From IMG/VR virus record IMGVR_UViG_3300025759_000171, positions 1 through 45,026 of that record: a stretch of DNA of 45,026 nt. One strand, 5' to 3'. The position numbers and the translations under genes were made by a program. Source of the DNA: a virus. Below, one piece after another: positions 8,191-34,655 of this stretch. Position 1 is the first letter of the stretch, and each line of letters opens with the position of its first letter. The notes under the pieces are model-generated. The model was not told where the DNA came from, ran no database searches, and worked only from the letters and a program-made list of their open reading frames with translations.

Positions 8191-8200
8191 GGTGTTCCCT

Positions 8201-8569
8201 TTGGGATACACCATCACATATACTGGCGGCAAGCCGTATATCGAGTACGAGATCAATGGAAGAAAGTACGGTTTCGCACGTGGCGACCCCAAAACAAACA
8301 TTCCAGCCTCATGGATCGAAGAACGCATTCTTGGCGGCATCGAAAACGGATCAACTTCTTGGGAAGTTGTTAGCGATGCTGATGAGAAAAAGACTGAGGC
8401 CATGAAGGAAGTTGTTGAGGCTACTGTCGAACCTGTTGAGGAAGCACCTGCTGTTCCTGAAGACCTTTCGACATTATCCCGTGCCAAATTGATGGCTTTG
8501 TGCAAGGAACGAGGCATTGACACCTCGAACCGAGACAAGAAAGCCGATCTGCTTGAAAAGTTGGCATGA
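8201..8569 (+). CDS. Head-region protein with C-terminal SAP domain
   Basis: 122 residues if it starts at TTG 8201, which lies six bases after GAGGTG (8189-8194). A GTG at 8192 is in frame but lies inside that binding site. Residues 1-58 are beta-rich (YTITYTGGKPYIEYEINGR), then an acidic Val/Glu/Pro linker, then residues 90-122, a good SAP/HeH match: LSTLSRAKLMALCKERGI followed by K-K-A-D-L-L-E-K-L. SAP motifs are small helix-extended-helix DNA-binding modules, and in phages similar modules sit at the ends of virion proteins. A second SAP-ended protein occurs at 14322. It may contact packaged DNA or a partner protein at the head, unproven. Confidence 0.72.
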   Translation: MGYTITYTGGKPYIEYEINGRKYGFARGDPKTNIPASWIEERILGGIENGSTSWEVVSDADEKKTEAMKEVVEATVEPVEEAPAVPEDLSTLSRAKLMALCKERGIDTSNRDKKADLLEKLA

Positions 8570-12123: not shown

Positions 12124-14283
12124 ATGGTGAACACGATATTCAAGGGCGACATTGCAGAAGTGTCATGGGGTAAAGAGACTGGATTGATCGCAACAGGAGA
12201 TACAACGTCTGATGGATGGGTGGCCTCCGCCCCAGTTGGAAACACCAGTTTGATCACAATTGGAGTAAATGCACCATGGGTGGCAGCGGGTCCAGACCTC
12301 CTAATTCCAGAGAATGCTTTGGTCGGCTGTGTCATGACAATCAGCGCGAGTGGGAATTTTGCTTCCGATGATTTTGCAACCACCCGTCGAACCTACTACA
12401 TCATTGCAAGTGATCAATCGGAAGGTACAATCACGGTTCAACCTGCATTGGTAAGTGGTGGAGCAACTGCGGCAGCAAGTGATGTGATGACAATTCATTC
12501 CATCCGCTGCCCAACATTTGACTCTGCAACTCAAGTTCGCACAGATCAATTCTTTGGACTCCTCGATTCTTTCAGCCTCCCTGAGCCTGAGATTGATGTT
12601 CGACAGCAACACATCATCGGCATGGGTCGAGATGTCAACGTCTTGACAAGCGGAAGGGAAATGCTTGCTGGCGGGAGTATGTCGCTTAACGCTCACACCC
12701 TTCGCTGGTTGAAATACGCACTTGGGGGCGTCAGTTCTCGATCAAACAATGGAGAGTTGTCTCACGCCACAGCCGCAAATACAATCCTAACCGCTCGACC
12801 TCTTCATCTCAAAGATGCAAGTGCAACCCTCTTAGGTTGTACCGCTCAAGTGGTTGGAGCAGCAGGAGTTGACACCATTACGGCAATAATTACTGGTACA
12901 ACCATGACTGGTTTGAATGTTGATAAGGCTGGCAAGAATTTGTTGATCGGTTTGACTTCATCAACTCATGGCACTACAACAAGCATCACACTTGGAGCCG
13001 CTTATACGACGGTTCACGATCAAGTCTCTGCATTAGGAGGCATATTCAAGCACGTTAGCACATCAGGTGTTTTGACCTACGGATCCTACACTTCTCTTTC
13101 AGGAGTAAATGTTGTGGGTTGCTTGGACATCGACACAGGTGCGGTCGCAAATGCTCGGACCAATGGTACGCTCGCCCTGCTTCCAGCAATCACGGCAAAC
13201 ATCGCAATCGATGACATTCGAGTAAAGGTCGGAGCAACCACACGTGCAAAATTCACGGCTGGCGAATACATTGGGATCATCGACAAAAATAGCCATTACA
13301 TACCTGGTGCTGATGCAACTTTGCCTACGGTATTTAAACATGAGATCCGAAGAGTCATCGCAGTTGATGGCGATTATGTCTATGTTGAGGAACCATTCTC
13401 CTTCGCACATACTGCCAACGAATGTGGAGTTGAGAGGCTTTCATGCCTCGATGACGATAAGCGAGGAAGCCCTCACATTGATTCAACCACCAAGGAATTG
13501 AAGAATGGCGTGTCTCACACCATGTTTGGTGGCACTCGTTTGCCAACTTTCATGATCGAGCAATCATTCCGATCAACGGATGAAAGCCCAGGCACAAATC
13601 AGTTGCTTCGACTGTATAACGGTTGCAAAATTGAATCAGCAACTGTCAATGCAAACAGCGAGGGTGAATTGAAAATGGATCTATCCTATGAGGCAACTCG
13701 ACACTACACCGATACTGGTGGAGCAATGACTCCACACCGTATGTTTGAGACAACAGCAAACACCGCTGCGAATCGAAAAGCAAGTGGCATTGCCGTTGAC
13801 GGTGAAAAACCATATCTCTTCCAAGACATCTCGATTGAAGTCTTTGGCGCACCTGTTCTCCGTGGCACTCAATTTGAGTTCACAATTGCAAATGGCAACC
13901 AGGCTCGGCACTACATCCGAGGATACGAAGGAAACACATTGGATACGGACAATGTTCAACTTGGAAGCACTCAAACGGCATTTGAGATCACAGAATCAAA
14001 GCGAGCGTACACGTTCCGATTCTCAGCCATTGTTGAGGATGATCGACTTTGGGAACAGGTTCGTACTCGAAAGCACCACACCAATTCCAACGACATCGTT
14101 CTTCGCTTGAAGAAGCGAGGATCACACGCTACAAGAGAATCGGCAACCATCACCCTCGAAGACTACACTATCGTGAAGGCTGATCACCAAGTACCTGACG
14201 ACAAAGGAGCCGTCATTGTTGAAGTTGATTTGCTCGTTCGCCACCTTAAGGTTGAGGAGAACTCACCATATTTGGCACTTTGA
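12124..14283 (+). CDS. Major tail tube protein, oversized
   Basis: 719 residues, about two to three times the usual 200-350 for siphovirus tail tube proteins. Position (after the completion protein, before the tail chaperones and tape measure) is that of the tail tube. Tube-like segments are at both ends: residues 160-200 (VRQQHIIGMGRDVNVLTSG) and 480-719 (LPTFMIEQSF..., then RAYTFRFSAIVEDDRLWEQV and an acidic/hydrophobic end). Between them, about residues 235-445, lies a Thr/Gly/Ala-rich beta region that is probably surface-exposed Ig-like decoration inserted in the tube fold. Codon use is moderately C-rich, consistent with a multi-copy protein. Confidence 0.7.
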   Translation: MVNTIFKGDIAEVSWGKETGLIATGDTTSDGWVASAPVGNTSLITIGVNAPWVAAGPDLLIPENALVGCVMTISASGNFASDDFATTRRTYYIIASDQSEGTITVQPALVSGGATAAASDVMTIHSIRCPTFDSATQVRTDQFFGLLDSFSLPEPEIDVRQQHIIGMGRDVNVLTSGREMLAGGSMSLNAHTLRWLKYALGGVSSRSNNGELSHATAANTILTARPLHLKDASATLLGCTAQVVGAAGVDTITAIITGTTMTGLNVDKAGKNLLIGLTSSTHGTTTSITLGAAYTTVHDQVSALGGIFKHVSTSGVLTYGSYTSLSGVNVVGCLDIDTGAVANARTNGTLALLPAITANIAIDDIRVKVGATTRAKFTAGEYIGIIDKNSHYIPGADATLPTVFKHEIRRVIAVDGDYVYVEEPFSFAHTANECGVERLSCLDDDKRGSPHIDSTTKELKNGVSHTMFGGTRLPTFMIEQSFRSTDESPGTNQLLRLYNGCKIESATVNANSEGELKMDLSYEATRHYTDTGGAMTPHRMFETTANTAANRKASGIAVDGEKPYLFQDISIEVFGAPVLRGTQFEFTIANGNQARHYIRGYEGNTLDTDNVQLGSTQTAFEITESKRAYTFRFSAIVEDDRLWEQVRTRKHHTNSNDIVLRLKKRGSHATRESATITLEDYTIVKADHQVPDDKGAVIVEVDLLVRHLKVEENSPYLAL

Positions 14284-14321: not shown

Positions 14322-14690
14322 ATGCGAATTGTAGGATTTGTGATGCTTAACGGACAGCGAATACCAGTTGATTGGTCAATTGTAGGAACGAAGATCGAAC
14401 ATGGGGTTGGCCTCAGCGCAGAAAACGTTGAGTTGTTCATTCAATTGCCGACCTATGTTGGAGATGACGGGCAAGCATTGCAGCAAGCCGTTGAAGAAGT
14501 TGTATCGACCACATCTGGAACATACGAGAAGCAGACTGTCAATGATCTGCGTGTTCTGTTGAGCCAACGTGATCTCCCCACATACGGGAACAAGGCTGAT
14601 TTGATTACTCGTTTGGTTAAGGACGATGCAAGTCCAGAGGTTGCCGAAGAAGCAACAGAAGAAGAGGTGAGCGATGATGGCGAAGCGTGA
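14322..14690 (+). CDS. Second SAP-domain structural protein
   Basis: 122 residues, the same length as the 8201 protein and the same plan: a beta-rich N-terminal half (RIVGFVMLNGQRIPVDW), a linker, and a SAP motif at residues 71-101 (TVNDLRVLLSQRDLPTYGNK then A-D-L-I-T-R-L), here followed by an acidic tail. A GGATAGGG site precedes the start. It overlaps the next gene by 14 bases. By position it belongs to the tail module, so the SAP domain may mediate protein contact rather than DNA binding. A TATA-like TTTAAG (14293-14298) lies about 27 bases upstream of the start. Confidence 0.7.
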   Translation: MRIVGFVMLNGQRIPVDWSIVGTKIEHGVGLSAENVELFIQLPTYVGDDGQALQQAVEEVVSTTSGTYEKQTVNDLRVLLSQRDLPTYGNKADLITRLVKDDASPEVAEEATEEEVSDDGEA

Positions 14691-15033
14691 TGCCTTTATC
14701 CTCAGCAACACACCAACTCAACACATTCTCGATACGCCAATGGGCGAGTTGATCGTGAATGTCAAGCAACTCTCTTGGGTTGAACAACAAGATGCCATGT
14801 CTCGATTCGTTTCTTTCAAGACGGGAGATGATGGATCCGTTGCCCCAGACATCGATTTGGGGGGCTATTGGCGATATGTGCTAACCAATTGTGTTGTCAG
14901 CACCGAACCAAGCCTCAGCAAAAAAGATCTGTTGAACCTTCACCCTGATGTCGGAAATGTCATCCGAACCGTACTCCCCGATCTCAATGAGATCATTGGT
15001 CAATTTGCAGGTGGCGTAAGCCCTTTGGAATAG
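14677..15033 (+). CDS. Tail assembly chaperone, short form (G-like)
   Basis: 118 residues from ATG 14677, six bases after GGTGA (14666-14670); an ATG at 14674 is only three bases from that site. It lies directly before the tape measure region, where phage lambda has G and GT. The sequence is mixed alpha/beta (ILDTPMGELIVNVKQLSWVE), as in other tail chaperones, and ends V-S-P-L-E-stop. Its last codons contain the slippery heptamer CCCTTTG, so a fraction of ribosomes should shift to make the longer form described separately. The protein would coat the tape measure before tube polymerisation and be absent from the mature virion. Confidence 0.78.
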   Translation: MAKRDAFILSNTPTQHILDTPMGELIVNVKQLSWVEQQDAMSRFVSFKTGDDGSVAPDIDLGGYWRYVLTNCVVSTEPSLSKKDLLNLHPDVGNVIRTVLPDLNEIIGQFAGGVSPLE

Positions 15034-15395
15034 AGTACGAGGACTTGGTTGCGTTCCTCGACGAAGATCTGGAAGACGACGAGCGACCTTCGCTCAATCT
15101 CTCCCAAGCAACAATTCTTTCGTTTCAAGCGATTACCTTTGCACTTGGCACTCATTTTCATTGTCCTCCTCACTTTTGGGACGATCAACCCCCAGATCGG
15201 GTATTACTCGACTATATGATTGTCCGTGCTGCCGCTGATAAGAAGGCCGAGATGCTTGAAAGAATGAAGAAACAGGCCGAAAGGCAAATGAAACACGGAA
15301 GAGGCAATAAGGGGCAACCACTACGCACAACAAGCGATGGAGTCGTTTTAGACGACTTCTTTGAAAGGCATAACCAAAAAATGAGGGGTGATTGA
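14677..15395 (+). CDS. Tail assembly chaperone, -1 frameshift fusion (GT-like)
   Basis: Predicted joined product: 14677-15027, then a one-base step back and continuation 15027-15395, giving 239 residues. The second frame has no good independent start: its first usable codon is TTG 15045 with no binding site. It is open from 14991 (preceded by TGA 14988-14990) and reads coherently across the end of the first gene (GIEYEDLVAFLDEDL). The downstream part is 122 residues with an acidic N-terminus and a basic, Lys/Arg-rich helix (ADKKAEMLERMKKQAERQMK), resembling the T domain that binds the tape measure. The stop overlaps the tape measure start. Confidence 0.75.
15021..15060 (+). promoter_or_regulatory. 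-1 programmed ribosomal frameshift signal
   Basis: The heptamer CCCTTTG (15021-15027) is in the correct phase, C CCT TTG, for X XXY YYZ slippage, two codons before the TAG of the short chaperone. Ten bases downstream, CGAGGA (15038-15043) pairs perfectly with TCCTCG (15055-15060), giving a 6-bp stem with an 11-base loop. An internal Shine-Dalgarno-like AGGTGG (15009-15014) lies about 10 bases before the A-site codon, as in bacterial dnaX. All three elements are read from sequence; function is inferred from analogy with lambda G/GT. Confidence 0.75.
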
Positions 15396-16821
15396 AATCG
15401 GACAACTTGACGAATATGTTTCATCCCTTGCAAAGATGAACGTTCTCAACAAGAAAAACGCAAAATCAGCCAATCTCCTTAACATCCAATACAAAGCCAT
15501 GAACAAGATCTTTGGACCGTTTTTGGATCTGTTCGTCGATACCAAAAATATGTTTGAAACCGCTGCCGAAGTGGTTCCTAAATTCAACAAAGAGATGCAA
15601 GAGACTGGTGAAGCGGTTGAAACGGCTATGGGGCCAATCGGTTCATTCCTGAAAGCACTTCGCGTGATCAACACGGTTATGATCATGATATTGGGGATTT
15701 TTGCTGCGGTTGGAGCCGCGATATATTTGCTCGCATCTCATGTAGGCGAAGGCGCAGGTGATTTCGAGATCCTGAATAAAATTGGTGAGGCATCCAAAAA
15801 ATTGTTTGAGGCTATCGGTGATACTTTCGACGCCCTTATGGGAGCCTTTGGTGCTGTTGACTGGGGAGTTGTGAGCGGGATTGTCCTTGAAGGATTGCAG
15901 GGCATTTTTGACGCTTTAGGGATGGTTTTGATCATTTACATCACACTTTACACCGAGATAATTTTGGGGATTGGCAAAGTCATCGCAAAAATGGATGAAG
16001 CGGGTATGTTTCAAAGGATTGGGGATGCAATTGCTGTTTTATTGGGATCGTTTATGGTTGCCTTTGACCTAATTGCACAAGCAATTAGCGATACGGGATT
16101 AACATTCGAGGACATAATTGAAGGAATACAGGGTGCTGTTGACTACTTCGTTGGTTTTCTTTTCAGTAGCGGAATAATCGAATTCTTTGTTCAAGTGATT
16201 GAATTGGCCTCAACTGTTTGGGCTTTGATAGTCGTGATTTTTGGAGTCGTTGTGTCGTTATTCATCCGTGTGTGGGCGCAACTTGGCCCACCATTGGTTA
16301 ATTTTGTTAGAGCCGTGTTTGACTTTTTGGATCCAATAATTCGCATCATCACAGGAATTATCGGCGTCATCATTGATTTGGTCATGGGGTTGATCGGCTG
16401 GTTGTTGCCCTATTTTGAAACAGGAATGGGCGTCATTATGGATCTCTTGCAACCTGTCATTGATTTGATTACATGGCTGTTGGATGGCGTTTCAACAGTC
16501 TTGGACGGAGTAAGTGGGTTCTTTGGTGGAGCAGCAGATCTCATGGGATTCAGCGATGGAGGTGTTGCAAGTGGCCCTTCAAGTGGATACCCAGTTGCAC
16601 TCCACGGAACAGAAGCGGTTGTGCCTCTTCCTGATGGCAGAACCATCCCTGTTTCGATCAAAGGCGACATGGGTGGCGGTGGAAGCACAAACAACATCAC
16701 CATCAACGTTAGCGGAGGCGGAGGCAATGCAAAGGAAATTGCCAAGGCCGTGAGCGAAGAAGTAAGCAAGGTCATGAGGACGAAATCCCGTGGCAATTCA
16801 TATTCAAGGGGCGTGATTTGA
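15388..16821 (+). CDS. Tail tape measure protein
   Basis: 477 residues from GTG 15388. Long hydrophobic segments (for example near residues 90-115 and several between 170 and 360) alternate with amphipathic helices. The C-terminus has the typical tape-measure ending: Gly-rich GFSDGGVASGPSSGYPVALH then G-T-E-A-V-V-P-L-P-D-G, followed by NNITINVSGGGG and a basic tail. At about 0.15 nm per residue the tail would be roughly 70 nm. The start is unclear: GGTGA (15387-15391) is followed after five bases by ATC, exactly where other genes have ATG, so GTG 15388, an ATC start, or ATG 15436 are options. It overlaps the chaperone by 8 bases. Confidence 0.85.
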   Translation: MIEIGQLDEYVSSLAKMNVLNKKNAKSANLLNIQYKAMNKIFGPFLDLFVDTKNMFETAAEVVPKFNKEMQETGEAVETAMGPIGSFLKALRVINTVMIMILGIFAAVGAAIYLLASHVGEGAGDFEILNKIGEASKKLFEAIGDTFDALMGAFGAVDWGVVSGIVLEGLQGIFDALGMVLIIYITLYTEIILGIGKVIAKMDEAGMFQRIGDAIAVLLGSFMVAFDLIAQAISDTGLTFEDIIEGIQGAVDYFVGFLFSSGIIEFFVQVIELASTVWALIVVIFGVVVSLFIRVWAQLGPPLVNFVRAVFDFLDPIIRIITGIIGVIIDLVMGLIGWLLPYFETGMGVIMDLLQPVIDLITWLLDGVSTVLDGVSGFFGGAADLMGFSDGGVASGPSSGYPVALHGTEAVVPLPDGRTIPVSIKGDMGGGGSTNNITINVSGGGGNAKEIAKAVSEEVSKVMRTKSRGNSYSRGVI

Positions 16822-18076: not shown

Positions 18077-20413
18077 ATGGCAATGCACACAATCCGTTCA
18101 AAGGCAATTCGATTCAATGGATTTACCGATGGAATCGTCGTCCCTACTGGTCAATTTAAGGAAAGTGGAATTAGCCTCCTAAGACCTGCGTATGGCGGTA
18201 CAACAGCAACAACAAAAAGCCACGCCACGAAGATTGGAAGGATTCATCTTCCAACTGAAAGCAATCCCTTAAACGCCATTTTAGGGCCATTCACAATTGA
18301 GGCATTTATTGTCCCAAATTATGGAGGGACTGTTGTTTCAAAACCAGGTTGCTTCTCTTTGGAAGTTGGCGATCCATTCAAGAATGCTCCCATCAAATTT
18401 AGCATTCATTGCATTGGTCGTGTCTTTACAGTTGCAACATCATTCGACGTCAATGTTCTCCTCGAATCACATTCGGGAACATACTCTGGAGGCCAGCACA
18501 AGCCAAATGACTTGACAGAGGGGGCGCAACCGTTGATGATGGTTTGCGCTCAATTTACGGGCGATGAGATGAAGGTCTTCGTGAACGGAAATTTGGTCGC
18601 CTCGTTAAATTTGATTGAAAACCGCATATTGGATAATGTTTCTTCGGATCTCTTCATTGGAGGCAGAGGCGGAGAGTATAGGGGCTTAATTGAAAGTGTT
18701 AGGATCTCAAGAGGCATAGTTGAGCCTTTGGTTCAGCCATTTGTGAACAACGATCAAACGATTGGTTTTTGGGATTTTAACGATGAAATCTCCTTGCCAA
18801 AATTCCACTTTTTCAACAATCGAAACGAAACAGCAGAGTCTCAAGGCAGAGATTCGTCAACCTATACCTCCCTGATTGAGACTCCAATGGTGATGCTCGG
18901 CTATGACTTTCAAAACATCAACGATTATGGGTACTTCAAAGTGTACGACCCTCCTGAACACGCCTCATCAAATGATGACAAATACACGGCACTTGAGAAG
19001 TTGGCGTCATACATCACGGGTCTTGATTTAATCGATGTCAAAAAACAAACATGGTACGCTACAAGCCTCAATGTGAATTCTGCTACATACGGAGGCTCAA
19101 CTGGATCTTTGGATTATTTGGCCTCTGATCGAATCAAGCAATCTTCATTGAATGCGGTTATCAATCAGTCAGGAACGCACCCCTTAACAGGTCTTACAAA
19201 AACCGCAACTGCACGTTTGGTTAATCTCACCAACGGAAACAACATCGCCACAGCAGTTGAATCCGATTTGGATCCAATGACAAACCCCATTGAGAGGGTA
19301 CGAATTATTTCCTTAGATTTTGCAAACAATCGAGTTGTTTGTCAATCGGTTCATTTGACAAATGATACGGGCGTGTCGGCCACCATCGAAAATCATCCAA
19401 AAGGCCAAGGCTTACTTTTTGACCATGCCGATGGAACTCCCATTTGGCTCACTTTGGGAAATGCTGATTTGATTGTTGACCCTGGAAACAAAAACACTTC
19501 GGCGGCAGTTGCAAATCAAGTGTCTCGACAAAAAGACGCTTTCACACGTGCAGAGTTCACTCAAGGACAACGCTTTGAAGATCGAAGTGGCAATCGGAAC
19601 ACAGCATATTTCACATCAGTTCAAAGCCGAATCACAACGGGTACTGCGGCTCTTACATCAATCAACCCTGAGCCAGATCCTCCAAAAGACAAGTTGCTAA
19701 TGTGGATTAACGCAGGGAGCATTACTGGTGTTTCCGATGGCGCAACATTAACTCATGTAGCGGATCAAAGTGGGAACCTATTTGGCCTTTATACGGTTGG
19801 CACATGGGTCTATGAGGCAAATAGTGCCTCCTTTAATTCAAAGCCAGCATTAAGGTGTACCTCCGCAGATGGTGCTTTGATCAATATAGGCACAAACGAT
19901 GGTGAATCAAAACAAATCACTCATACGGGTACTTCATTCACCGCCTTTTGGTTTGCAGCGGTGAATTACAATGCATCGTACAACACCGATCTCATTGGAC
20001 AAAACGGAGGCTCACCAAAAACATTCTTTGGGATTTCGGGGGCGTCAGGGAATTGGTTTTTCACGAACAATGGGACCACAACAACAAACGCTACATCCAC
20101 GGATTTGACAGTACCTGGCCTTTATTCAGCAACTTTTAATGCGGCAACAACAAACACGACTGTCCATTATCATTCAGCAACTGAAACCACTTTTGTCGCC
20201 AAAATCACAGGAACATTGAGTTTTGCAAATTCGCTTTTCACCATTTTTGGACGAGGGGCGTCATCGGATCCAGCGGCGAAAACAGGTACTGCAACGAACA
20301 AAGCAATTCAAAACACTCGCATCGCAGAGTTTCTGTTATACGAAAAGTCCATGACTGATGCTGAAAGGCAACAAGTGCAGGGGTACTTCCTCGACAAATA
20401 CACGGTGATATGA
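18077..20413 (+). CDS. Tail-tip protein with two LamG-like (concanavalin-fold) domains
   Basis: 778 residues if started at ATG 18077; GTG 18068 and ATG 18083 are alternatives and no strong binding site decides. The first LamG-like domain is at about residues 65-230, with typical segments GPFTIEAFIVPNYGG, DEMKVFVNGNLVASLNL and YRGLIESVRIS followed by G-F-W-D-F. The second is at about 530-778 (LLMWINAG...VADQSGNL...) and ends TRIAEFLLYEKSMTDAERQQ, a signature of sugar-binding jelly-roll domains. Between them lies an uncharacterised region. Such domains bind surface glycans, so it is a candidate host-recognition protein on the tail tip. It overlaps the next gene's start region (GGTGATATGATG). 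Confidence 0.75.
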   Translation: MAMHTIRSKAIRFNGFTDGIVVPTGQFKESGISLLRPAYGGTTATTKSHATKIGRIHLPTESNPLNAILGPFTIEAFIVPNYGGTVVSKPGCFSLEVGDPFKNAPIKFSIHCIGRVFTVATSFDVNVLLESHSGTYSGGQHKPNDLTEGAQPLMMVCAQFTGDEMKVFVNGNLVASLNLIENRILDNVSSDLFIGGRGGEYRGLIESVRISRGIVEPLVQPFVNNDQTIGFWDFNDEISLPKFHFFNNRNETAESQGRDSSTYTSLIETPMVMLGYDFQNINDYGYFKVYDPPEHASSNDDKYTALEKLASYITGLDLIDVKKQTWYATSLNVNSATYGGSTGSLDYLASDRIKQSSLNAVINQSGTHPLTGLTKTATARLVNLTNGNNIATAVESDLDPMTNPIERVRIISLDFANNRVVCQSVHLTNDTGVSATIENHPKGQGLLFDHADGTPIWLTLGNADLIVDPGNKNTSAAVANQVSRQKDAFTRAEFTQGQRFEDRSGNRNTAYFTSVQSRITTGTAALTSINPEPDPPKDKLLMWINAGSITGVSDGATLTHVADQSGNLFGLYTVGTWVYEANSASFNSKPALRCTSADGALINIGTNDGESKQITHTGTSFTAFWFAAVNYNASYNTDLIGQNGGSPKTFFGISGASGNWFFTNNGTTTTNATSTDLTVPGLYSATFNAATTNTTVHYHSATETTFVAKITGTLSFANSLFTIFGRGASSDPAAKTGTATNKAIQNTRIAEFLLYEKSMTDAERQQVQGYFLDKYTVI

Positions 20414-23400
20414 TGTCAACTCTCAACGATCCAACAGACGAAGGCTATGCTGGCATGGCAGGGATGACCGCTTACAACCACGTCGAAGGTGATTTCTTTT
20501 TGAGCAAGATGCCTCCATTTGACAATCAAGTGGTGAAGCAGACAATACAGGGCGTAGTTGACGAGTTTATTTTGAAAACGGATGAAATTGCTCTGCAATC
20601 CATATTCGCTGAGAATCAACCCGTGAGCATCACAGAAACAGTCTATTTTCATGAAACAACCAATGTGATCAATAAATCATTGACATCATACGCAACTGAT
20701 GCGTCAGGGAATCCCTTCAATCGAATTGTGATACAAGCAGGATCGGGAGAATACAATGCGTCCCTTGCAACAAACGTTTCGTCTTCCGTCCACGATGAAA
20801 TTGTGGCTTTGGCCGTGGAGGATGTCCGACCATTTATGATCAAAGGACTCGACATTGACCACGATGCAAATATCGTCAACGGGAAGCCAAAAAATGACGG
20901 TTATATTCGCCATTTGACTCCAAGTGAGGAGCCATTGATTGCTTCAATAAAGTCGCCAAGCATACTGACCACAAATGGGGGTCCGAGTCGAATTTTGGTG
21001 TATTATGATGCTATTGATCTCACAGGTGAAGTTGTGGCAGGTACAGGCTTGCCAAAGAGCGATTTTAATACAATCATGGATGACTATTACTCTGGTACAA
21101 AGAAGGCATACTTGGTTGTGCAGAAAACCGTACCTGCTGCATCCACGGTATTTTCAATTGGCGGGACTCCTCGAACCCTATCCGATATACTCCTCAAGCC
21201 TTACGCATCCCCTCCAGGGACTCCCTCCGATGTTCAACTTGAGATCACCTCAGCAGGAGGCTTGATTAGCATCCCTGCGTCAAATTTCAAACGTCCAATG
21301 AAGTCTCATGCATTGAAATCCTATGGGCAAGGTGGACGCATGGACTCGCCGTACATTGATGTAAGCGATTGCTTGATCTCAATGAAAAATTCAATACTTG
21401 GTTATGGTCGCCCACGGGCAATTGACAACCCCAACATTCCCGATCAAACATCTAATCCTTCACACCATGTTATGGTGATCACTCCTTCAACTGGAACTGA
21501 CTTAAAGCAACACAATTCAACAAAACAAACACCCGCTGGCCTTTCGAGGGCAAGTCTTCAAGTGTTCAATGTGATTGATAACACCCTGTCATTGAATGAA
21601 AACCTTGTTTTGGCATTGCCAGCAAATCGGAATCGATATGCAGTTTTCGACGATTTTACAACTTCTGCGAATTCAGTCAACCCCTCATTGATTACGATTG
21701 AAATCGCTCTTTTGTCTGGTCGAGCGGAGCAATTCAATGTCCAAGTCAAGGGCGACGAGGCAGAATTGGAGATACGAGGTCGATCAAAGTTGATGGACTT
21801 TTCAAACAAACAGGTTGACAGAGATCTCAACTTGGGTGAAGCCATACCAATCAAAGAGATTGGTGATTTAGGGACTCCGACCACCACGCTATCATTGGGT
21901 GGATTAGGTCAAGGTGGAATTGATGCAAGACCCATTTGGGACGAACACCGCAACTTGACAGGATGGAAGGATCGAATCGTTGGGACTGGAAATCCCTCTG
22001 TTCGCAATGATAAACAAACATCAACCCACTATGCCTCCACCAGGGCTTTGACAGAGATTCCCTTGTTCCCCTCAATGTTCTATGATGTGGAAAAAATACA
22101 TGGCGAGGGGAAAGAATTGCCCCATCCAAGTGGAATGGATTTTACAATGACAGTTGACGCAACCATGACCGCAATGAATCGCCCTCAAATGCAGCACATT
22201 GAAGGCAAAAATGCAATTGATTGGGGCATGAGGGATGTTGTTTCAGCAATACGGCTAAATCAGGATGTCTCCTTACTCATGTCCCATGTCAATTCATATG
22301 CCATACGCTGTCAACATTCGATAATTCAAGGCGTGATCACAGGGCATAACTTGACCCTTGGAACAACGAACTCCTACATTCAACTCGATGATGTTGAGGC
22401 TTTTGAAAATGAAGCAGGTTTAAGCATTGGCGGATCTGGCGTTTTGGATCAACCATGTTTTATCACCATTGGTGAAGGCATCATTACTGAGGATGCGGGG
22501 CAAGAACACGTGTCGCACTACATGATGAGAATACACAAGATCGACACAGGCACAAATCGAATTTACCCAAATTTGGCTTACGTGAGGACCGCTGGAGGGG
22601 ATTCTCCTGTGCGTACCTTTGATACAACTGCGTCAACAAGAGCCGATGCTCATATTTTTGTTGGAGCAGTTGTGATGATGGGCGGGATTATAGCAAATTC
22701 AAATCTCCACGCCAATGCTCCAAATTACAATGCAGCAGTTCCTACAACAGAGGGCATTCGAGATGCTGTTCGTGCGTGTTTAGGAGGCAATCCAGTTAAT
22801 ATCATGCATTACCCAAATTCACATCAATCTCCGCTCGCTAAGGAGTTGGTTTTGATCTTCAATGATCGAGTCAGTATGTCTGGTCTTGAATTTGACATTT
22901 ACAATGAATTTGGAGGGAAGAACGATGTTTATGCAAGGCTTCCAATTGAATGCATCCCCTATTTTGCAGGGTTGAAAGGAAAACATTCGGATGGATCGGC
23001 CTTAGATTATGTGATGCCTCAACAGATTCGATTTCGAGACATTGCCCTCAAATCGCAAGGTTTCAAAGATTGTGTTGATGAGGTGATTCGCACAATAAAC
23101 ATGAGCGGTCATCCTAAAGCAAAGAACAGTATCGGAAAAAGCGCATATGAAACGTTCCTTCAAAGCATTTTCAATTCAGGATCTCATTATGGATATGTTC
23201 GTGCCTTCTTGGGAAGTGAAGTGGAATCTAAGGACGGAGAGAAAGGATTGTCCATCGTGATCCATAGCACCGTACCTGGTGCTGCTGGCCGCAACTTTGC
23301 AGTATGGTTTGAGAACAGAAGTTCGTACCCTTACAGGCCAATTCAAGCATTTGGTTTTGGTGGCCTCTTGGCACAAAATAGTCGAACATATGGGGCAAAT

Positions 23401-25317
23401 TCGTTTGCTGCCCCCATGCCGATTGGATCGGATGGAGAAACATATGTCCCAATCACCACATTTACAGGCGCACCTCATGGTCGGACCATTCAATGGGGGT
23501 CAATTCTTTACAGCAATGTTGATGATGTGAGATCATACGATGGCGTCGGCCAACGCTATAAAGCGCAAACAACCAATTTAGGGGCAACTGGAAATGCATA
23601 CGGGAGTTATTCAACCAATGTCATTTCAAAGATCAATGTTGACATTGGAGTTATCGATTACATGGCTCGATCCAACATACTCGCAAGCCAAACGAATTCA
23701 GATACGCCAATCATCATACGAATGAATGGGAAATTAGCAACTGTTGGCTCTGTTGGGCCGATCATATCGGAGATGACAATTGTGTCGCTCGAAAACGTTA
23801 GGCCATACGAAGACGCAAAGAAGTTCTATGATGCCCTCTTTGACAATGCAGGAGCCGAGATCATTGGTCTTGAAGTTGAATTTTTGAATCCTTTGATGGA
23901 CAAGGACGGCATAATTTTCTTCGGAGGAGGGCATACTGGCGTTGTCTTTGACATTAGCGATGGCACAGATCGGGATTATTCATTGGATTATGATCATCAT
24001 TTGGCAATAGGTCCAACTGGTTTCAGCGGTTTTCAAAACGTTGGTGATTTCCAAGGCGCATCAGCCGTCCTTGATTTTACCGATCTTCGCAATGAAGACA
24101 CAATAAACGATAACACATTCCGTGGGTTCCATCATCGAGATGAATTGGATGCAAATGGTTCCCCCAATGGGATATGTAGGATGTATGTGCGATGTGTTGA
24201 CCACGCAGTACCTGGTGAGGCTTTTGGTGCAGGAGCATTTACTCAAGACAACACACAATGGCGAGAAGACCTTTACAATCGAAAGGTTCGCCTCACAACA
24301 ACTGGATTTAGCGCATCAACCGCATCAATAACCGATAACATTGAGATTACAGGATCATCATTAACACTCGCCGCAAAGTCATGGTGGCATGAAGATGTTG
24401 TGGCTCTTTTCAATAACAACGGGGGTACGATAGAAGCGGAACACGGAGAAGTCAAATCGTTTGATCCTCGATCTTCAGGGACAACGGGGTGGGGTATTTC
24501 TGCGGTGATGAAACCAGGAACGGATTTAACCCATTTCACGGGACCGATATTGCATGGGATTTTCAATGCTGGAACAACTCAGGGCTATCCATGGGGGCTG
24601 CACGTTGCTGGTCAACCCCCAGTAGGTGCAGATCAAGAAATTACAGTTGCACTTTCAAGAGGAACAGGACTTGGCTTTGGACTTCCAGTCGATGCAAAAG
24701 TATTGGTTCCACAGTCCATGCCAAGCGCAGGAATCAAAGTCAAAACAAATGGATGGACATTTGTGATGATGGGGATCCACGCAGGTGGGGAAACCTACTG
24801 CTACATTGGGAATACGGTCGGAATTACAAACCCCGCAGATCCTGGTGGTGCGATGGCTCCAGGCATTCACGATTTGACTCAGTTCATTGCAAATGTTGCA
24901 GATCAAAATTATGGCGTTGCAGCAACTGGTCCGAACAAAAGAAACACATTCGATACACAATCGAATGGCTATGGGGGCGGTGTTGCCGATCATCCTGATG
25001 TACCTGCTGCGTTGCAAACGATTCGAGACTTGGATATGGCTACAATCGGATGCGCTTTGATCGGTGCGCCTCATGTCAACTTCTTAGGTCCAGAGACAAC
25101 ACAGGGAGGACACCCATGCCCTCCATTTACGGGATATTTCAGCGGTATGCTCTCAGGAGCAAGCACATATGGAACCGTTGATGCGGCGGGTGCGACTGGT
25201 ACGAATTCAGCAGGGCCAATCCATTTTGCTGGCTTTTTGTCCGAAGTCGCTTTATGGAAGCGGGGGATCACATTTACTGAGGCGAGTACCCTGTGGGCTG
25301 GCCGATCCATTTGGTGA
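20413..25317 (+). CDS. Giant tail-tip protein with C-terminal LamG-like domain
   Basis: 1634 residues from ATG 20413, overlapping the upstream stop as TGATG, with GGTGA at 20404-20408. Nearly all of it is beta-rich, Gly/Asn/Thr-rich sequence without a recognised catalytic motif. Residues from about 1312 to the end look like a LamG/concanavalin-type domain (GWGISAVMKPGTDLTHFTGP, then TNGWTFVMMGIHAGGETYCY and finally FAGFLSEVALWKRGITFTEA). It ends with Trp and stop TGG-TGA, which also supplies the next binding site. Together with its two large neighbours it probably forms the tail fibre/baseplate assembly that contacts the host; the precise part is not resolvable. Confidence 0.72.
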   Translation: MSTLNDPTDEGYAGMAGMTAYNHVEGDFFLSKMPPFDNQVVKQTIQGVVDEFILKTDEIALQSIFAENQPVSITETVYFHETTNVINKSLTSYATDASGNPFNRIVIQAGSGEYNASLATNVSSSVHDEIVALAVEDVRPFMIKGLDIDHDANIVNGKPKNDGYIRHLTPSEEPLIASIKSPSILTTNGGPSRILVYYDAIDLTGEVVAGTGLPKSDFNTIMDDYYSGTKKAYLVVQKTVPAASTVFSIGGTPRTLSDILLKPYASPPGTPSDVQLEITSAGGLISIPASNFKRPMKSHALKSYGQGGRMDSPYIDVSDCLISMKNSILGYGRPRAIDNPNIPDQTSNPSHHVMVITPSTGTDLKQHNSTKQTPAGLSRASLQVFNVIDNTLSLNENLVLALPANRNRYAVFDDFTTSANSVNPSLITIEIALLSGRAEQFNVQVKGDEAELEIRGRSKLMDFSNKQVDRDLNLGEAIPIKEIGDLGTPTTTLSLGGLGQGGIDARPIWDEHRNLTGWKDRIVGTGNPSVRNDKQTSTHYASTRALTEIPLFPSMFYDVEKIHGEGKELPHPSGMDFTMTVDATMTAMNRPQMQHIEGKNAIDWGMRDVVSAIRLNQDVSLLMSHVNSYAIRCQHSIIQGVITGHNLTLGTTNSYIQLDDVEAFENEAGLSIGGSGVLDQPCFITIGEGIITEDAGQEHVSHYMMRIHKIDTGTNRIYPNLAYVRTAGGDSPVRTFDTTASTRADAHIFVGAVVMMGGIIANSNLHANAPNYNAAVPTTEGIRDAVRACLGGNPVNIMHYPNSHQSPLAKELVLIFNDRVSMSGLEFDIYNEFGGKNDVYARLPIECIPYFAGLKGKHSDGSALDYVMPQQIRFRDIALKSQGFKDCVDEVIRTINMSGHPKAKNSIGKSAYETFLQSIFNSGSHYGYVRAFLGSEVESKDGEKGLSIVIHSTVPGAAGRNFAVWFENRSSYPYRPIQAFGFGGLLAQNSRTYGANSFAAPMPIGSDGETYVPITTFTGAPHGRTIQWGSILYSNVDDVRSYDGVGQRYKAQTTNLGATGNAYGSYSTNVISKINVDIGVIDYMARSNILASQTNSDTPIIIRMNGKLATVGSVGPIISEMTIVSLENVRPYEDAKKFYDALFDNAGAEIIGLEVEFLNPLMDKDGIIFFGGGHTGVVFDISDGTDRDYSLDYDHHLAIGPTGFSGFQNVGDFQGASAVLDFTDLRNEDTINDNTFRGFHHRDELDANGSPNGICRMYVRCVDHAVPGEAFGAGAFTQDNTQWREDLYNRKVRLTTTGFSASTASITDNIEITGSSLTLAAKSWWHEDVVALFNNNGGTIEAEHGEVKSFDPRSSGTTGWGISAVMKPGTDLTHFTGPILHGIFNAGTTQGYPWGLHVAGQPPVGADQEITVALSRGTGLGFGLPVDAKVLVPQSMPSAGIKVKTNGWTFVMMGIHAGGETYCYIGNTVGITNPADPGGAMAPGIHDLTQFIANVADQNYGVAATGPNKRNTFDTQSNGYGGGVADHPDVPAALQTIRDLDMATIGCALIGAPHVNFLGPETTQGGHPCPPFTGYFSGMLSGASTYGTVDAAGATGTNSAGPIHFAGFLSEVALWKRGITFTEASTLWAGRSIW

Positions 25318-25322
25318 TGTAA

Positions 25323-28300
25323 ATGGCAGAAGTATTCCCCCGTGCATTTTACCCTGCCAAGTATAGGCTGATGGGTAAAACCGCCGATGGAATGCCAAAG
25401 TCTGGAATCATGGCTATGCACATCACTTATCCCGATACCGAATACTCACATGATGACATAGAGGATTGGGAAATGGGGGTCAACTCAACTGATTGGCGAC
25501 AGGGAATCACCGTTTTGATACGAACGCCCTTGGCAACTGCTGCAATAGCCGAAGCAAAGAATGTCATTGCAATCGATCTCAAGCAACAAGCGGCAGACCA
25601 TGGAAGTGCAGATCATACCTATGATTTGGGAACTGAGGAAGCAACACGTTTTATTGCTGCTAAGATCAATTCTCGAAGAATCAAAATGGTCGGAGAAAGA
25701 GACAAAACCTCGTACCTTCGAGCAAAGTATGTCCGTCAATCAATGGACAAAAAATACAAGATTGAATCCTTGACATATACGAGTGGTTCGATTGTGGTCG
25801 CTAAGATCAAGACATTGAGTGGAACTGCTGTGCCAACTGAAATGATTGGTAAATTCCAATTGAAGGTTGGGATTGGAGCGGGAGGCGGGGTTAAAAAATT
25901 GAACGCAGGGACATATTCGCTTGCAAGTGAGCCTGTGTTTCTGTATCGTAGCGGGAATTTTGCTTATGTCAGCATGGCATCAACAGGTTATGCCTTTACC
26001 GCAAGTCCAACAGCAGGAGATGCCTTGGTTGGAAGTTCCGACATTACTTTGGAAACAGCAGATGATCCAGTCCACACCGTTGTCTTAGGATGGCAAAAAA
26101 TCAGTCCACATCAATCACATTATTATTGGGCAGAAGCAAATTTAGGCCCCGTAGTCCAAGGCGTTGGAACAATTGGTTTGCACAAATTGATTGCAAAACC
26201 AATGGACGGAGGCAACATGGGATTGCCTTCACCAAACCATGTTAGCCAAAACGGTCGAGAAACGACGTCTTTTACGGCGGTTGGGCCACAATATGGAAGA
26301 GGATACAATCGATTCAGCATCGAGGGATTAAATTCATGCAATATGCCTTCGATCCCCCCTCCTGATTATCATATCACTTCACCTCACATTGAAGGAATTA
26401 CTTCATTGCACCCCGATGTAGTCTCCGACATCTCCGCAAACAAGTTGCAGATTGAAAAGTTGGAATCTGGTGTGGAATTGCCAGTTGCAGCCACGGATCA
26501 CAAAATATCTCTTGAGAACGGGTACAATGGCACATTTTCATCAACTTCTGTGGCTGCATCAATTTACAATGATGGGGTTGAACCGTATTTGTCGAATTTC
26601 ACAATGGCAAATATCCATGTGTCGCACGGCATAAAGGATTCAAATCAAGAGGCTTATGCTCGCCCATTTAGGATGACAGGAACCATAAATCCAGATCGGG
26701 TTAGCGGTTTGCAGATCAGCAATGAAGAACGAGTCTTTGATGATATTGAGGTTCTCGACGATCAAGGAAATTCATTGGTGTTGAAAGGTAAATCTCCGTG
26801 GGGTACTGTGATTCGTGATTTCACATATTCAAACGAAAGAGAAAACCCTGAGACTGGTGTCGTTGAAGTCGGACCCTCGTCGCCTGGAGGGACATTAACT
26901 CCAAATCTCAAAATCCAATTGCCAAAACAAGAAGACATACCTGGCGGGATCTTTGTTCGTTCAGGCCATGATCGAGTGCAAGCATGGTCGAACAAGACTT
27001 GGGGGTTGGGAGGGTTATCTGCTCCAAATCCAAGAAAGGCAGGGGTCGCAGAAGAGGATAATGAAACGTCTCAATTTGATACTCATGATCGTATGTTGAT
27101 CTTCCATTGCCAACGAATACTTCACGATAAAATGGAACAGTACCATGGATTAAATCTCCGTAAGCCCAATGGCAACTCAAGTAGCGGTCAAACACGATTG
27201 TTTGCATCTCACCGCATATCCGATCACGCTGAAAGAGGAAGCGTATTGAAACAAACAAACAATGGTGTTGAAACAGGCAATTTGATCCCTCACCATCGCA
27301 TTCGCTTTGCGAGATATGGTCATTCTTTCATCACACCGACTTTACACAGAGGGACGCCTATGAGTATGAGGCGACAATTGCATCGATCTCATGGCTCTGC
27401 ATATTCCTTGATGTTTGAAGCAGAAACCGAATACAAACACCACGGCTTTGGAAGTGGAGACACGACAAATTCTGCAACTGTGTTTGAATTGGATACTCTC
27501 GAAGCAAAAGCAAGTTCCAATTATGCAACAGGATCATTCGCAGGAGATGGCTTGCCATTGAGTGAATTGAAAGGAGCAAGGCTTCCCGATATTGATGGAT
27601 CCTACACTTCTGTCAATCATCGCAACTTTTTGGATTATTTGTTCGCTCCAGGTCAGGAACACACTAAGGCAGAAGGCATAAGCCAATCTGTTGAGTTTGC
27701 ACTTGGATCTGCAACGCTTTCAGGGTCGAAGGCAGCAACGAGATTGACAGTCCAAGGAGGCACGTTGACCAAAAATAACCGCTTTGGTACTGCTAACGAG
27801 TTCATGATCAATGGATTCATGGTGAACCAGTATTTGGGCATGGGTGGTCGTTTGGAGCCGATTCGCAAGTTAAGTGCAGATGGCACAGGAAATTGGTTTG
27901 TTCGAGGATTTGCAGAGGGTGTGATTCGACCACGTGTTGCAACAGAGTTGGCGACTGTACCTCCTTTGTTTGCCCACGATCCAGAATTGCTGAACATGAA
28001 TGCTGCCCAAGTGAGTTTGAGCAATTCCATTCCAAGCACATCGTTTAGGAAGCCCACAGATGCAGATCATGGTTTGATCAAAGCAGCAGATACTTTCAGC
28101 GGAGCAACCCCAGACGCTTTCCTTTGCAATTGGCTGGCCGAATACAGCCATCCTTCTCTCTTTGGAACCAGCAGGGAGCATTTCCTCATGTTCCGATACC
28201 GTGAAGCAGGGATGCCTCGATCAAGAGATTACCCTGCCGTTAATGGTTTATTTTTACGCAATTCTTCACATCCAACCACCACGGCTCAACCATTGAAAAG

Positions 28301-31300
28301 TGCTGCTTTTGAAAGGCTTTACATCGCACAATGGTTGCAAAATTGGGGATTCAATGGCTTGAATGCAAGCGGCCATGGCAACATTGAGGGGCTTCGAGGA
28401 GCGGGAGCCGTTCGTATGGGTCATACCACTATTCGAGAAGCCAGCGGCACACTACGTTTGATGAAAGAGAACGCAAACGGAAATCGATTTTCAAGAGGAG
28501 AAGGGATTGGAGATGGTATAGATCCTACAAAGGAAATTGGCGTCGTGATGGGGATCGACAAAGACACCGACAATGAAGACTTCAACAGGCAATACTTTGC
28601 ATTCCAACCTTGTGTTGGGATTGACATTAGCCGAAGGCTTCCAGTAAGGTCTTGGGGCTTTAGGACTGGATCCGATGCTTTGAATATGCTTGCTGGCGAT
28701 CCTACTGAGGCCGATGCAGGGAATGCCCAAGCAGTTTTGAACAGCGGTCGATTTGATGGTGGGATTCATGATGCTGTTCAAGATCTGCCCAGTCCAGCCT
28801 CGTCAACTGATGGTACGGATTGGGGCAATTACCTCACTACTTTGGGCATGGAAAGATCAGTCCCAGTAGGTTTTGTAGCAAATGATTTCACGGTCGAGGC
28901 TACACCGTTTGAAAGGAACATCCGACAAAACAACGAGATCTTATCCGAAACAGAGAGGATTGGGATAGGAAACAGAGTTGGCATCACCGAAAACGGTATG
29001 CTTTCTCCACACGTTATGGCATCAGGGGGATGGGACTACGAGTTGGATGATACACGCCCAACTGAACTGCCAGTATCTGGGGCTGTGTTATGGTTGAAGG
29101 CTGATTCATTGGATCTTCAAGACGGAGATTCGGTGGCAAAGTGGACAGATTCATCAATTAACAAGTGGGAGTTCATCCAAGGAGGGGCTTCGGCTCAACC
29201 GACATTTGTGAAACAAAATTCTGCCGTGAACAATATGCCAGTTGTCAGTTGTGATGGCGGAGATTTTCTTGACATGAGTTCTTTTCAAGCATCTCTTAAT
29301 ACAAAAGAAATGACTCTTTTTGCGGTTGCTTTCCCTGATTCCGACAACAATGCTGCACAAGGAGTCATTGAGTCATTCTCAAATAGCCCTGTGGCAAGAT
29401 CAGGATATTCATTGTGGGCGAGAATGGATATGACCAATCTTTGGAGATTTCAAGGCGGGGCTGATAGCACCTATACTGGTGTCAATTCGGCTAATAATGG
29501 GGCAGAAGGAGGCGTTGCAGACGTCATAACTGGAAAAATTTATGGTGGAAATGGCGCAGGTGGGACTTCAACATTTGAGATATACCAAAATGGAAAATTG
29601 GATAACACAACCACGGGTCCATACTGGATGGCTACTGCTGATCCTGTTGGAGTTGCTCACGTAGGGAGTTTCAAATTAACTGGAAAGATTGCTGAGATTA
29701 TTCAATTCGACCGAAAATTGACAACGGCTGAACAGCAAGAAGTTGAATCGTATTTGTCTCGAAAGTATGACATAAAATTCGCTTCAACTGCTTCGCCTCA
29801 CCCTGCTTTGTATTACGATATTAACCACAAACCGTTGAACAAGGGTTCGGATCCGTGGATTGATCTTCAACAATGGACAGGATCAACATCCTACGATCAA
29901 ACCGCATCCCCTGGTGCGATGATTGCTCAAGCCTCCGATTTTACTACGGCACAATTTTATCATCTGCGTGGGAATGCCTTCCACACCAACATGAGGCCAA
30001 TCACAAAAGCATTATCGCAGTATGGCTATCCTCCAATGGGGCAGAGCCAGATCGCAGGGAGTTCATTGACTATCACGGAAACAACTCCTCTTCTTACCTC
30101 AGAGATCTCCGACATAAGGCAAATTCAATCAAGAACAGAACCTCGTCTTGGTTTGGTCATGGAGGTGGAAAGTGAACGGTTGGAAAACAAGAACGTTGAG
30201 TATGCGGTTGCAGGAACCCGATCTGTTTCTCTCCATTCCGATTTGATGCTTGGATACCACTTCCCCGTTTTGCCATCTCATCAAACAAAGGCTCAATTGC
30301 AGTTGGAAGGTTTCACCGTAAATGGATCGGGGAGCGCAACGGTTGCAAAGGATTTCAAAACAAAACCTGTTTGGAGTCCTGATTCAAATGCTTCTAAGGG
30401 GGCAATCGTTGCACCAAGCGATTCGATTCGAGGAGATCAAAAGACTCACGCCTTAGACGTGTGGGCGGTTAGAGGTTCAGCGGATTTACCAGCCTGGGGC
30501 GGAGTCTATATTCTCCGCAAAACCTATTTGCATCGCGGTGAAGAGGAAACGATGAAGTCCCAAGTCGATTCAAACACAGGTAAGGTTGTAGCCTCAAACC
30601 CAGTTCGCAAGTATGTTGATTACATTGTCCGACCTGTGAGGCCATTGAAATTGTACGGCTTTGCCTCCGATCTTTTACAGGATGGTTTTGTCTTAGGTCC
30701 GAGAGCATCTCTCTCAGGATCATTCAACACCTATGGCTCACAAATTTTTACCAGAGATAAGCGATACGGAATTTTTGAAATGAATGACGCCCGTGCTTTG
30801 GGCGAGGTTGAACCGATCACCTCAGCGGAGGGTTCCTTTGAGATCACATATCCTGATTTCAATGAATTTGATGTTGTTTGGCATTTGATTCCAAGTGCAA
30901 ATATGCTTCAATTTGCAAAGTCCGATGCTCATCGGTTCTCCGACGACCAAAAGATGGAACCAACCATTGAGCCTCGATACTCTCAAGCATCACACGTGGG
31001 AGGGGGCAACAAGGTCAGTCAATCGGAAACCAAATATGACCTCACCAAGGGAATCATGGGAGATCATGCGAGGCATTCAAAGGATGGCGAAATTGTTCAA
31101 TCCCAAGACTCTCTCAGGTTATATCCAAGAGTCAAAGTGATGACCAGCAAAGGAGGAAATGTGTATTCCTTGGATGATGCATCTGTTCTCCCCCCAGGAG
31201 GAGGCAAAGTATTCGCCTTAGATCATACGGGTGTTTTGACATATTCGAGCGTGAGCGGGGATGACATCACCATCTCTGGAGGATCGTTAGTGGATTCAAC

Positions 31301-33198: not shown

Positions 33199-33822
33199 AT
33201 GGCAAAATGTTCATGCAAACCTGGAATTGAGAGAGATAGTTGCTCAAAATGTGAAGGAACAGGTCAAGTCAAGAATTTTTTGGGCAATCACATTTGCCCT
33301 AAATGCGGTAAGCGGGGCGACGGAATGCGATTTAGGCATGAGAAACATGGTTGTGATGATAACCGCATTGACACCGATAGGAACTTGATGATGAATCAAA
33401 AACAGTTTGAACGCTGGCAAGATAAAAACGCAAGTGAACCAATGAAGATTTTTGATATTGCATGGGATCTGATGAAAAGCGACAGTCAAGGGTGCGATGT
33501 TTGCGGTGAAACAGATGGTGTTTTCACCTACATGGATAACAACAAAAGAGCGCACATGGTTTGTTCCGATGCTTGCATGGATAAGAACAAAGGCAAGGGA
33601 AGAGGAACAACGCCCGTTTTAGGCGGAGGAAGAATGGTGAAATCCGATGAGAAGGGCGACAACGCCCCAACCAACCCTGGTCTTTGGTCGCAAGCCAAAT
33701 CGAAGGCTCGATCCAAGTTCAAGGTGTACCCTTCGGCCTACGCCAATGGTTGGGCTGCTAAATGGTACAAGTCCAAAGGCGGCGGCTGGAAGAAAAAGTC
33801 CAAAGGAGGAAAAAAGAAATGA
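33199..33822 (+). CDS. Multi-zinc-finger basic protein with internal AWDLMK-type peptide
   Basis: 207 residues, GGAGG at 33186-33190. Residues 4-40 have a DnaJ-like cysteine pattern (C4-x-C6, C15-x2-C18, then C33-x2-C36 around a G-x-G turn). Residues 82-94 (MKIFDIAWDLMKS) match the N-terminal peptide of three nearby genes, and an internal ATG at 33442 begins exactly there. Next comes CDVCGETDG...CSDAC (about 98-125), a treble-clef-like zinc site. The C-terminus (LWSQAKSKARSKFKVYPSAY followed by a Trp/Lys/Gly-rich tail) resembles a module repeated in many phage and giant-virus proteins of unknown role. Probably nucleic-acid-binding, possibly virion cargo. Confidence 0.72.
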   Translation: MAKCSCKPGIERDSCSKCEGTGQVKNFLGNHICPKCGKRGDGMRFRHEKHGCDDNRIDTDRNLMMNQKQFERWQDKNASEPMKIFDIAWDLMKSDSQGCDVCGETDGVFTYMDNNKRAHMVCSDACMDKNKGKGRGTTPVLGGGRMVKSDEKGDNAPTNPGLWSQAKSKARSKFKVYPSAYANGWAAKWYKSKGGGWKKKSKGGKKK

Positions 33823-34034: not shown

Positions 34035-34655
34035 ATGATTGACGCCCCCATCTCGGATCTTATCGAAAAAGACTTGAGGCGTTGGTTCAAAGAAAAATGG
34101 GTTGACGTTTCTCGCAAGGATAAGGATGGCAAGCATCCTCCTTGTGGACGTGGCGAAGCAAAGACGGATAGCAAGGGCTATCCAAAATGTCGCCCTTCAA
34201 AGAAGGTTTCTTCCAAAACCCCTAAAACAACGAGAGGTATGAGCCAATCGGATAAGAAAGCGGCTACGCGCCGTAAGCGATCCAAACCCCAAGGAGTAGG
34301 AGGAAAACCAACCATGGTCAAAGCGTTTAGATGTGATTGCGAGAGTTGCGATTTGCTGTCGAAGGCAATGATCTCAAAGGCTAAGAAAAAATCCAAGCCA
34401 TTCCATGGCTACAACCCAAACCGACACAGCAGAAAGGGCGGTTTGAATGCCAAGGGTCGAGCCAAGTTCAAGCGTGAGCAGGGATCCAATCTCAAGCCTC
34501 CCGTGTCGCAGAAACCCTCAACGCTCAAACCAGGTTCAAAGAAAGCAAAACGTCGAAAGTCGTTCTGCGCTCGAATGGGCGGAGTCAAAGGTCCAACCAG
34601 TAAAGGTGGAAAATTGACACCAAAGGGTGCGGCATTGAAACGGTGGAATTGTTGA
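34035..34655 (+). CDS. Highly basic Lys/Arg-rich protein with phage-conserved motifs
   Basis: 206 residues, very basic. Block one (about 13-90) reads LRRWFKEKWVDVSRKDKDGK, then C37, Y-P-K-C52, and a Lys/Arg run with MSQSDKKAATRRKRSK. Block two (about 136-206) reads GLNAKGRAKFKREQGSNLKP and ends KRRKSFCARMGGVKGPTSKG ... ALKRWNC. Blocks of both kinds recur in many marine phage and giant-virus proteins of unknown function (recalled; no accession claimed). A cysteine cluster, CDCESC (100-105), lies between. The charge suggests binding of packaged DNA or RNA. No good binding site precedes ATG 34035, but a six-base gap after the previous stop supports coupling. Confidence 0.7.
   Translation: MIDAPISDLIEKDLRRWFKEKWVDVSRKDKDGKHPPCGRGEAKTDSKGYPKCRPSKKVSSKTPKTTRGMSQSDKKAATRRKRSKPQGVGGKPTMVKAFRCDCESCDLLSKAMISKAKKKSKPFHGYNPNRHSRKGGLNAKGRAKFKREQGSNLKPPVSQKPSTLKPGSKKAKRRKSFCARMGGVKGPTSKGGKLTPKGAALKRWNC

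Follow-up and report, generated by a model that had tools for sequence, protein, structure and literature searches.

A conserved CCCTTTG heptamer points to lambda-type −1 frameshifting in the tail chaperone genes of a probable archaeal tailed virus

The tail chaperone locus of this viral DNA contains a short gene whose end overlaps a second open frame, and the question is how ribosomes could enter that frame. The window, which is the whole stretch of 45,026 nucleotides that was analysed, carries a heptamer of the slippery type at this place. On the basis of conservation, it is very probable that the locus is a lambda-type G/GT programmed −1 ribosomal frameshift in an archaeal tailed virus. This reading is supported by the anatomy of the locus, the nucleotide-level conservation of the site (an invariant heptamer) and of the stop, the lack of another way into T, the predicted chaperone fold of G, and the gene order. 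The original prediction had proposed the same lambda-type pair and holds up well in this respect.

The heptamer, the zero-frame stop and their conservation

The zero-frame ORF, G (14674-15033, + strand), encodes 119 aa and is assigned as a tail assembly chaperone from the ORF, its fold, and remote similarity. The slippery heptamer C_CCT_TTG, the putative −1 shift site, lies near the end of this ORF at 15021-15027 (+ strand), and is in phase, as predicted originally, with the reading C CCT TTG GAA TAG. The zero-frame stop TAG (15031-15033, + strand) follows one codon past the heptamer, at a conserved position. The −1 frame stays open across the heptamer, from 14991 to the TGA at 15393-15395; after the shift it would give an extension, T, of 122 aa (15027-15395, + strand). 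In-phase XXXYYYZ heptamers occur at 0.42% of codons in the forward ORFs of the window, which gives an expectation of about 0.06 for the final 15 codons of an ORF. The evidence regarded as decisive for the shift site is the conservation of the heptamer and of its distance to the stop.

Relatives were collected by scanning IMG/VR with the T and with the G proteins. This yielded 55 unique sequences of 400 nt, one of them from the window, in 35 lineages with <80% nucleotide identity to each other, from records of 14-108 kb. The T protein is conserved across 58 loci in the scan, with a lowest identity to the window of 36%. C_CCT_TTG, one codon, and the zero-frame stop are present in 55/55 unique relatives and all 35 lineages, and the heptamer is always located 10 nt before the stop, which is TAA in 49, TGA in 4, and TAG in 2. 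Conservation of the heptamer had been proposed as a check, and homologues that lose it or gain a good start for the second frame were looked for among the relatives; none was found. Loci found with G only have the same arrangement of heptamer and stop, and the conservation is thus independent of searching with the shifted frame.

Codon usage at the site is equally uniform. Among the first 39 unique sequences, the frame 0 codons are CCT (39/39) and TTG (39/39), and the −1 codons are CCC (39/39) and TTT (39/39). Other conserved columns of G and T in the same 39 sequences use three or four codons for proline and five or six for leucine, and conserved phenylalanine is encoded by both TTT and TTC. 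When the second codon of T is isoleucine, it is ATA in 26/26 representatives, compared to 43% ATA elsewhere, because ATA is needed for keeping the zero-frame stop. The invariant heptamer codons and the choice of ATA indicate that the slip and frame-0 termination are both under selection.

Two other explanations of the split frames are affected by these data. A chance heptamer together with a sequencing or assembly frameshift in one continuous gene could mimic the pattern in a single contig, since one frame change near the gene end is enough, but 55 distinct sequences, drawn from many metagenomes, show the same change at the same base. This explanation is considered refuted by the comparative data, and its probability is negligible. 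Slippage of RNA polymerase on the heptamer, rather than ribosomal frameshifting, would likewise require nucleotide-level conservation to join the frames. However, C3T3G has 3-base runs only, and every relative keeps the exact X_XXY_YYZ phase relative to frame 0. The known sites of transcriptional slippage need long homopolymers, and polymerase slippage is highly improbable here.

Entry into the T frame and candidate stimulators

The second frame was predicted to be open across the site and to lack a credible start, and it is indeed open (14991-15395) with no start codon conserved among the relatives. In 16/55 unique relatives, the −1 frame contains no ATG, GTG, or TTG between its nearest upstream stop and a point 75 nt beyond the heptamer start, and the first possible start of T lies far into the conserved T protein. 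The last −1-frame stop is located ≤9 nt from the heptamer in 27 unique relatives. In four of them (L030, L035, L038, and L042), this stop abuts the heptamer, and frames 0 and −1 share only CCC TTT GGN. The alignment shows that conserved T sequence starts directly after the heptamer.

T could instead be a separate gene with its own start, such as the TTG at 15045 or a cryptic codon, that is coupled to the termination of G, the heptamer being incidental. The window does have GAGG close upstream of this TTG, and virus operons often show translational coupling. However, this TTG is not conserved as a start, the onset of conserved T sequence coincides with the end of the heptamer, and the nucleotide-level invariance of CCT-TTG is left unexplained. 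Independent initiation or coupling cannot explain the relatives without start codons, by which a separate T gene is largely refuted and becomes very unlikely.

For programmed −1 frameshifting, two candidate stimulators flank the heptamer. The first is the SD-like motif AGGTGG at 15009-15014 (+ strand), which the original prediction had included in a "complete" cassette. The motif is present as described, with a spacing to the heptamer of 6 nt and not "about 10". Anti-SD pairing at this place is strong in the window and in most lineages (mean −7.8 versus −3.1 elsewhere in G). It is not above synonymous shuffles (mean z −0.24), the motif is missing in L047 and L117, and the conservation of AGGTGG does not exceed what the Gly-Gly residues require. 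The motif may act as a stimulator, which its conservation does not show; as synonymous shuffles reproduce the pairing, it is left as an unproven element, and its place in a complete cassette is weakly supported.

The second is a 6-bp stem-loop at 15038-15060 (+ strand), with arms at 15038-15043 and 15055-15060. As originally described, the match is perfect over 6 bp and begins 10 nt past the heptamer; the loop is 11 nt. A 30-nt fold of the window sequence, starting 4 nt into T, exceeds all of 400 synonymous-codon shuffles in stability (z −3.3) and takes first place among 55 positions, whereas 56 nt at the same place show no excess stability (z 0.17). The stem signal thus depends on the length that is folded. 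Across 13 close relatives, 96% of the stem cells are paired, the changes are G-U only, and no compensatory pair was found. Both arms are also constrained by protein conservation (YED...FLDE).

Conservation of the stem had also been proposed as a check, and here the outcome is different: the stem is lost in some close relatives, and most of the more distant relatives have another, stronger hairpin. The latter typically comprises 7-9 bp with a loop region of ~25-30 nt, and begins 6-7 nt past the heptamer in a register that varies by lineage. The stem of the window is a weakly supported candidate for a frameshift stimulator. The hairpin of the more distant relatives gives a mean z of −1.99 against synonymous shuffles at the site, versus −1.18 to 0.37 elsewhere in T, and a combined p of 8e-12 over 35 lineages, which are related and not fully independent. 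The Rfam search gave no match. A single stem common to all relatives was considered as well and was rejected, as the base-pairing registers differ between lineages.

The chaperone fold, the proposed shift and known systems

The predicted structure of G (pLDDT 85) has its best viral match in the tail assembly chaperone of Haloarcula hispanica tailed virus 2 (HHTV-2; E 2.8e-6), and lower matches include other tail and tape-measure chaperones such as Mu FS-gp41. The best solved match is YqbN (3klu; Z 6.0, rmsd 4.2, 91 residues), presumably an XkdN-type chaperone, with a moderate Z and 3% sequence identity; the next solved structure follows at Z 2.2. Foldseek found nothing significant for the G model in the PDB, and the informative comparisons were those with the viral library and by VIA. 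The profile comparison of G with HVTV-1 gp129 gives a probability of 87%, a remote similarity, and phrog_25860 (tail assembly chaperone) is matched by 2/17 family members. The fold and the remote sequence evidence are individually modest, and they indicate that G has a tail-chaperone fold. T contains the motifs HF-C-PPH-W-D and RTTSD. Its comparison with PHROGs did not yield a usable function, and its model lacks a relative among solved structures. That T has no database relative confirming its function counts against the frameshift reading.

Tail tube, G, T, and tape measure follow each other in this order, with one small SAP-like gene between the tail tube and G. The tail tube gene (12124-14283, + strand) was identified by tblastn and matches only haloarchaeal virus tail-tube genes, for example HCTV-5 gp127 and HHTV-2 gp46. 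The tape measure gene (15388-16821, + strand) has PHROGs tape measure matches with a best E of 1.3e-9.

According to the proposed mechanism, most ribosomes would read ...S-P-L-E-stop and release the 119-aa G. A minority, given the efficiency presumed for the shift, would slip one base back in tandem, with tRNA-Pro moving from CCU to CCC and tRNA-Leu from UUG to UUU. These ribosomes would read on as ...S-P-L-G-I-E-Y-E-D-L... and produce a G-T fusion of ~240 aa, and the downstream hairpin may stimulate the slip. By the decoding rules, a P-site CCU can re-pair perfectly as CCC with tRNA-Pro(GGG), and the tRNA of an A-site UUG would re-pair on UUU at the first two positions. The A-site re-pairing of the Leu tRNA on UUU would be imperfect for a CAA anticodon, which counts against the mechanism.

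The lambda G protein binds to the tape measure, and GT in addition brings in tail tube subunits (PMC5009743). If the roles here are as in lambda, G would coat the tape measure protein, tail tube subunits would be recruited by the T part, and the G:GT ratio would control tail assembly. The locus shares with the lambda G/GT pair (G_GGA_AAG) its location between tail tube and tape measure, the −1 direction, an X_XXY_YYZ site near the end of G, and a T without its own start. It differs in the heptamer and the host domain.

Closer parallels exist in haloarchaeal viruses. Frameshifting by −1 in the same gene is reported for HVTV-1 and HCTV-1, -2, and -5, both by Atkins et al. 2016 (PMC5009743) and in a 2021 review (PMC8211752). 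The G/GT genes of HVTV-1 (gp129/130), HCTV-5 (gp128/129), HCTV-1 (gp122/123), and HCTV-2 (gp40/41) lie between tail tube and tape measure as they do here, and the T of HVTV-1 has 122 aa, the same as T here. In contrast, the heptamers located in the haloviral records, at the end of G and in the −1 direction, are GGGAAAG, GGGAAAC, and AAAAAAC, whereas C_CCU_UUG is invariant over the whole group studied here. The absence of C_CCU_UUG among the haloviral heptamers counts against the frameshift reading. The stop follows the heptamer after one codon here, after about ten codons in HVTV-1, HCTV-1, and HCTV-5, and directly in HCTV-2. No sequence relation was detectable between the haloarchaeal T proteins and T here. 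In the literature searched, nothing was found that links magroviruses with a tail-chaperone frameshift, and CCCUUUG was not found as a site in a prokaryotic virus, the only match being a West Nile virus paper.

The locus was expected to be of special interest if the host is archaeal. An archaeal virus is very likely, and the special interest is less than suggested because G/GT −1 frameshifting is already known in haloarchaeal viruses; the present group has its own invariant heptamer. Archaeal −1 frameshifting has been tested in a single cellular gene, Sulfolobus fucA1 (PMC8211752); the remaining cases are predicted ones, in a few haloarchaeal viruses and methanogen genes. What is new is a large and deeply conserved comparative set outside the haloarchaea (55 sequences, 35 lineages) with one invariant site, which is a clean substrate for the study of archaeal ribosome slippage. 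For annotation, T should be treated as part of a G-T fusion and not as a stand-alone ORF. A wider and more tentative proposal, which is plausible and given slightly less than even weight, is that the whole marine archaeal virus group uses C_CCU_UUG as an unchanging site with lineage-specific, replaceable hairpins. If true, this would suggest that the heptamer fits the tRNAs of the archaeal host (tRNA-Pro GGG and Leu tRNAs), and that the downstream structure is secondary and tunable.

Viral affiliation and neighbouring genes

The capsid protein matches only viruses of haloarchaea and methanogens. The protease has low-identity matches to viruses of bacteria and of archaea, and the C-terminal part of the tape measure matches two bacterial phages. 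Since the capsid and the tail tube match archaeal viruses only, an archaeal host is very likely.

Magrovirales typically have their own replisome, including PolB and a sliding clamp (PMC10160649). In contrast, among the 15 related contigs tested, which may be incomplete, PolB occurs in only one (G015) and PCNA in none. Scarce PolB and no PCNA make a poor fit to typical magroviruses. Satyavativiridae, which are viruses of Poseidoniales, possibly replicate by the host replisome and have a capsid that resembles that of Druskaviridae (PMC13108676). The Poseidoniales viruses of the Magrovirales and Adrikavirales (Satyavativiridae) share with the present group that they are large marine tailed viruses with a Druskaviridae-related capsid (PMC13108676, PMC10768690). 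The related contigs recall Satyavativiridae and may be placed there, judging from the published description of that family. The contig with PolB (record L073; gene at 25153-26280) has the same heptamer in its tail chaperone locus.

Several further features of the window were noted. The ORFs at 14322-14690 and 8192-8569, both small and in the structural module, have similar SAP-like ends, VNDLRVLLSQRDLPTYGNKADLITRLVK and LSRAKLMALCKERGIDTSNRDKKADLLEKLA; the former lies between the tail tube gene and G, whose start it overlaps. The tape measure gene apparently starts with GTG and overlaps the end of the T frame (15388-15395), an arrangement that suggests possible translational coupling to the synthesis of GT. 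Two very long ORFs of 1635 and 2510 aa occupy 20410-32855. The PHROGs search of the 1635-aa ORF gave no match, and from their position both probably encode tail tip or fibre proteins. The neighbouring proteins at 33199-33822 and 34035-34655 have weak DUF5872 and clear DUF6321/DUF5872 matches, respectively. A minus-strand ORF at 44382-45026, cut at the window end, is related to the PAPS reductase domain family (phrog_424).
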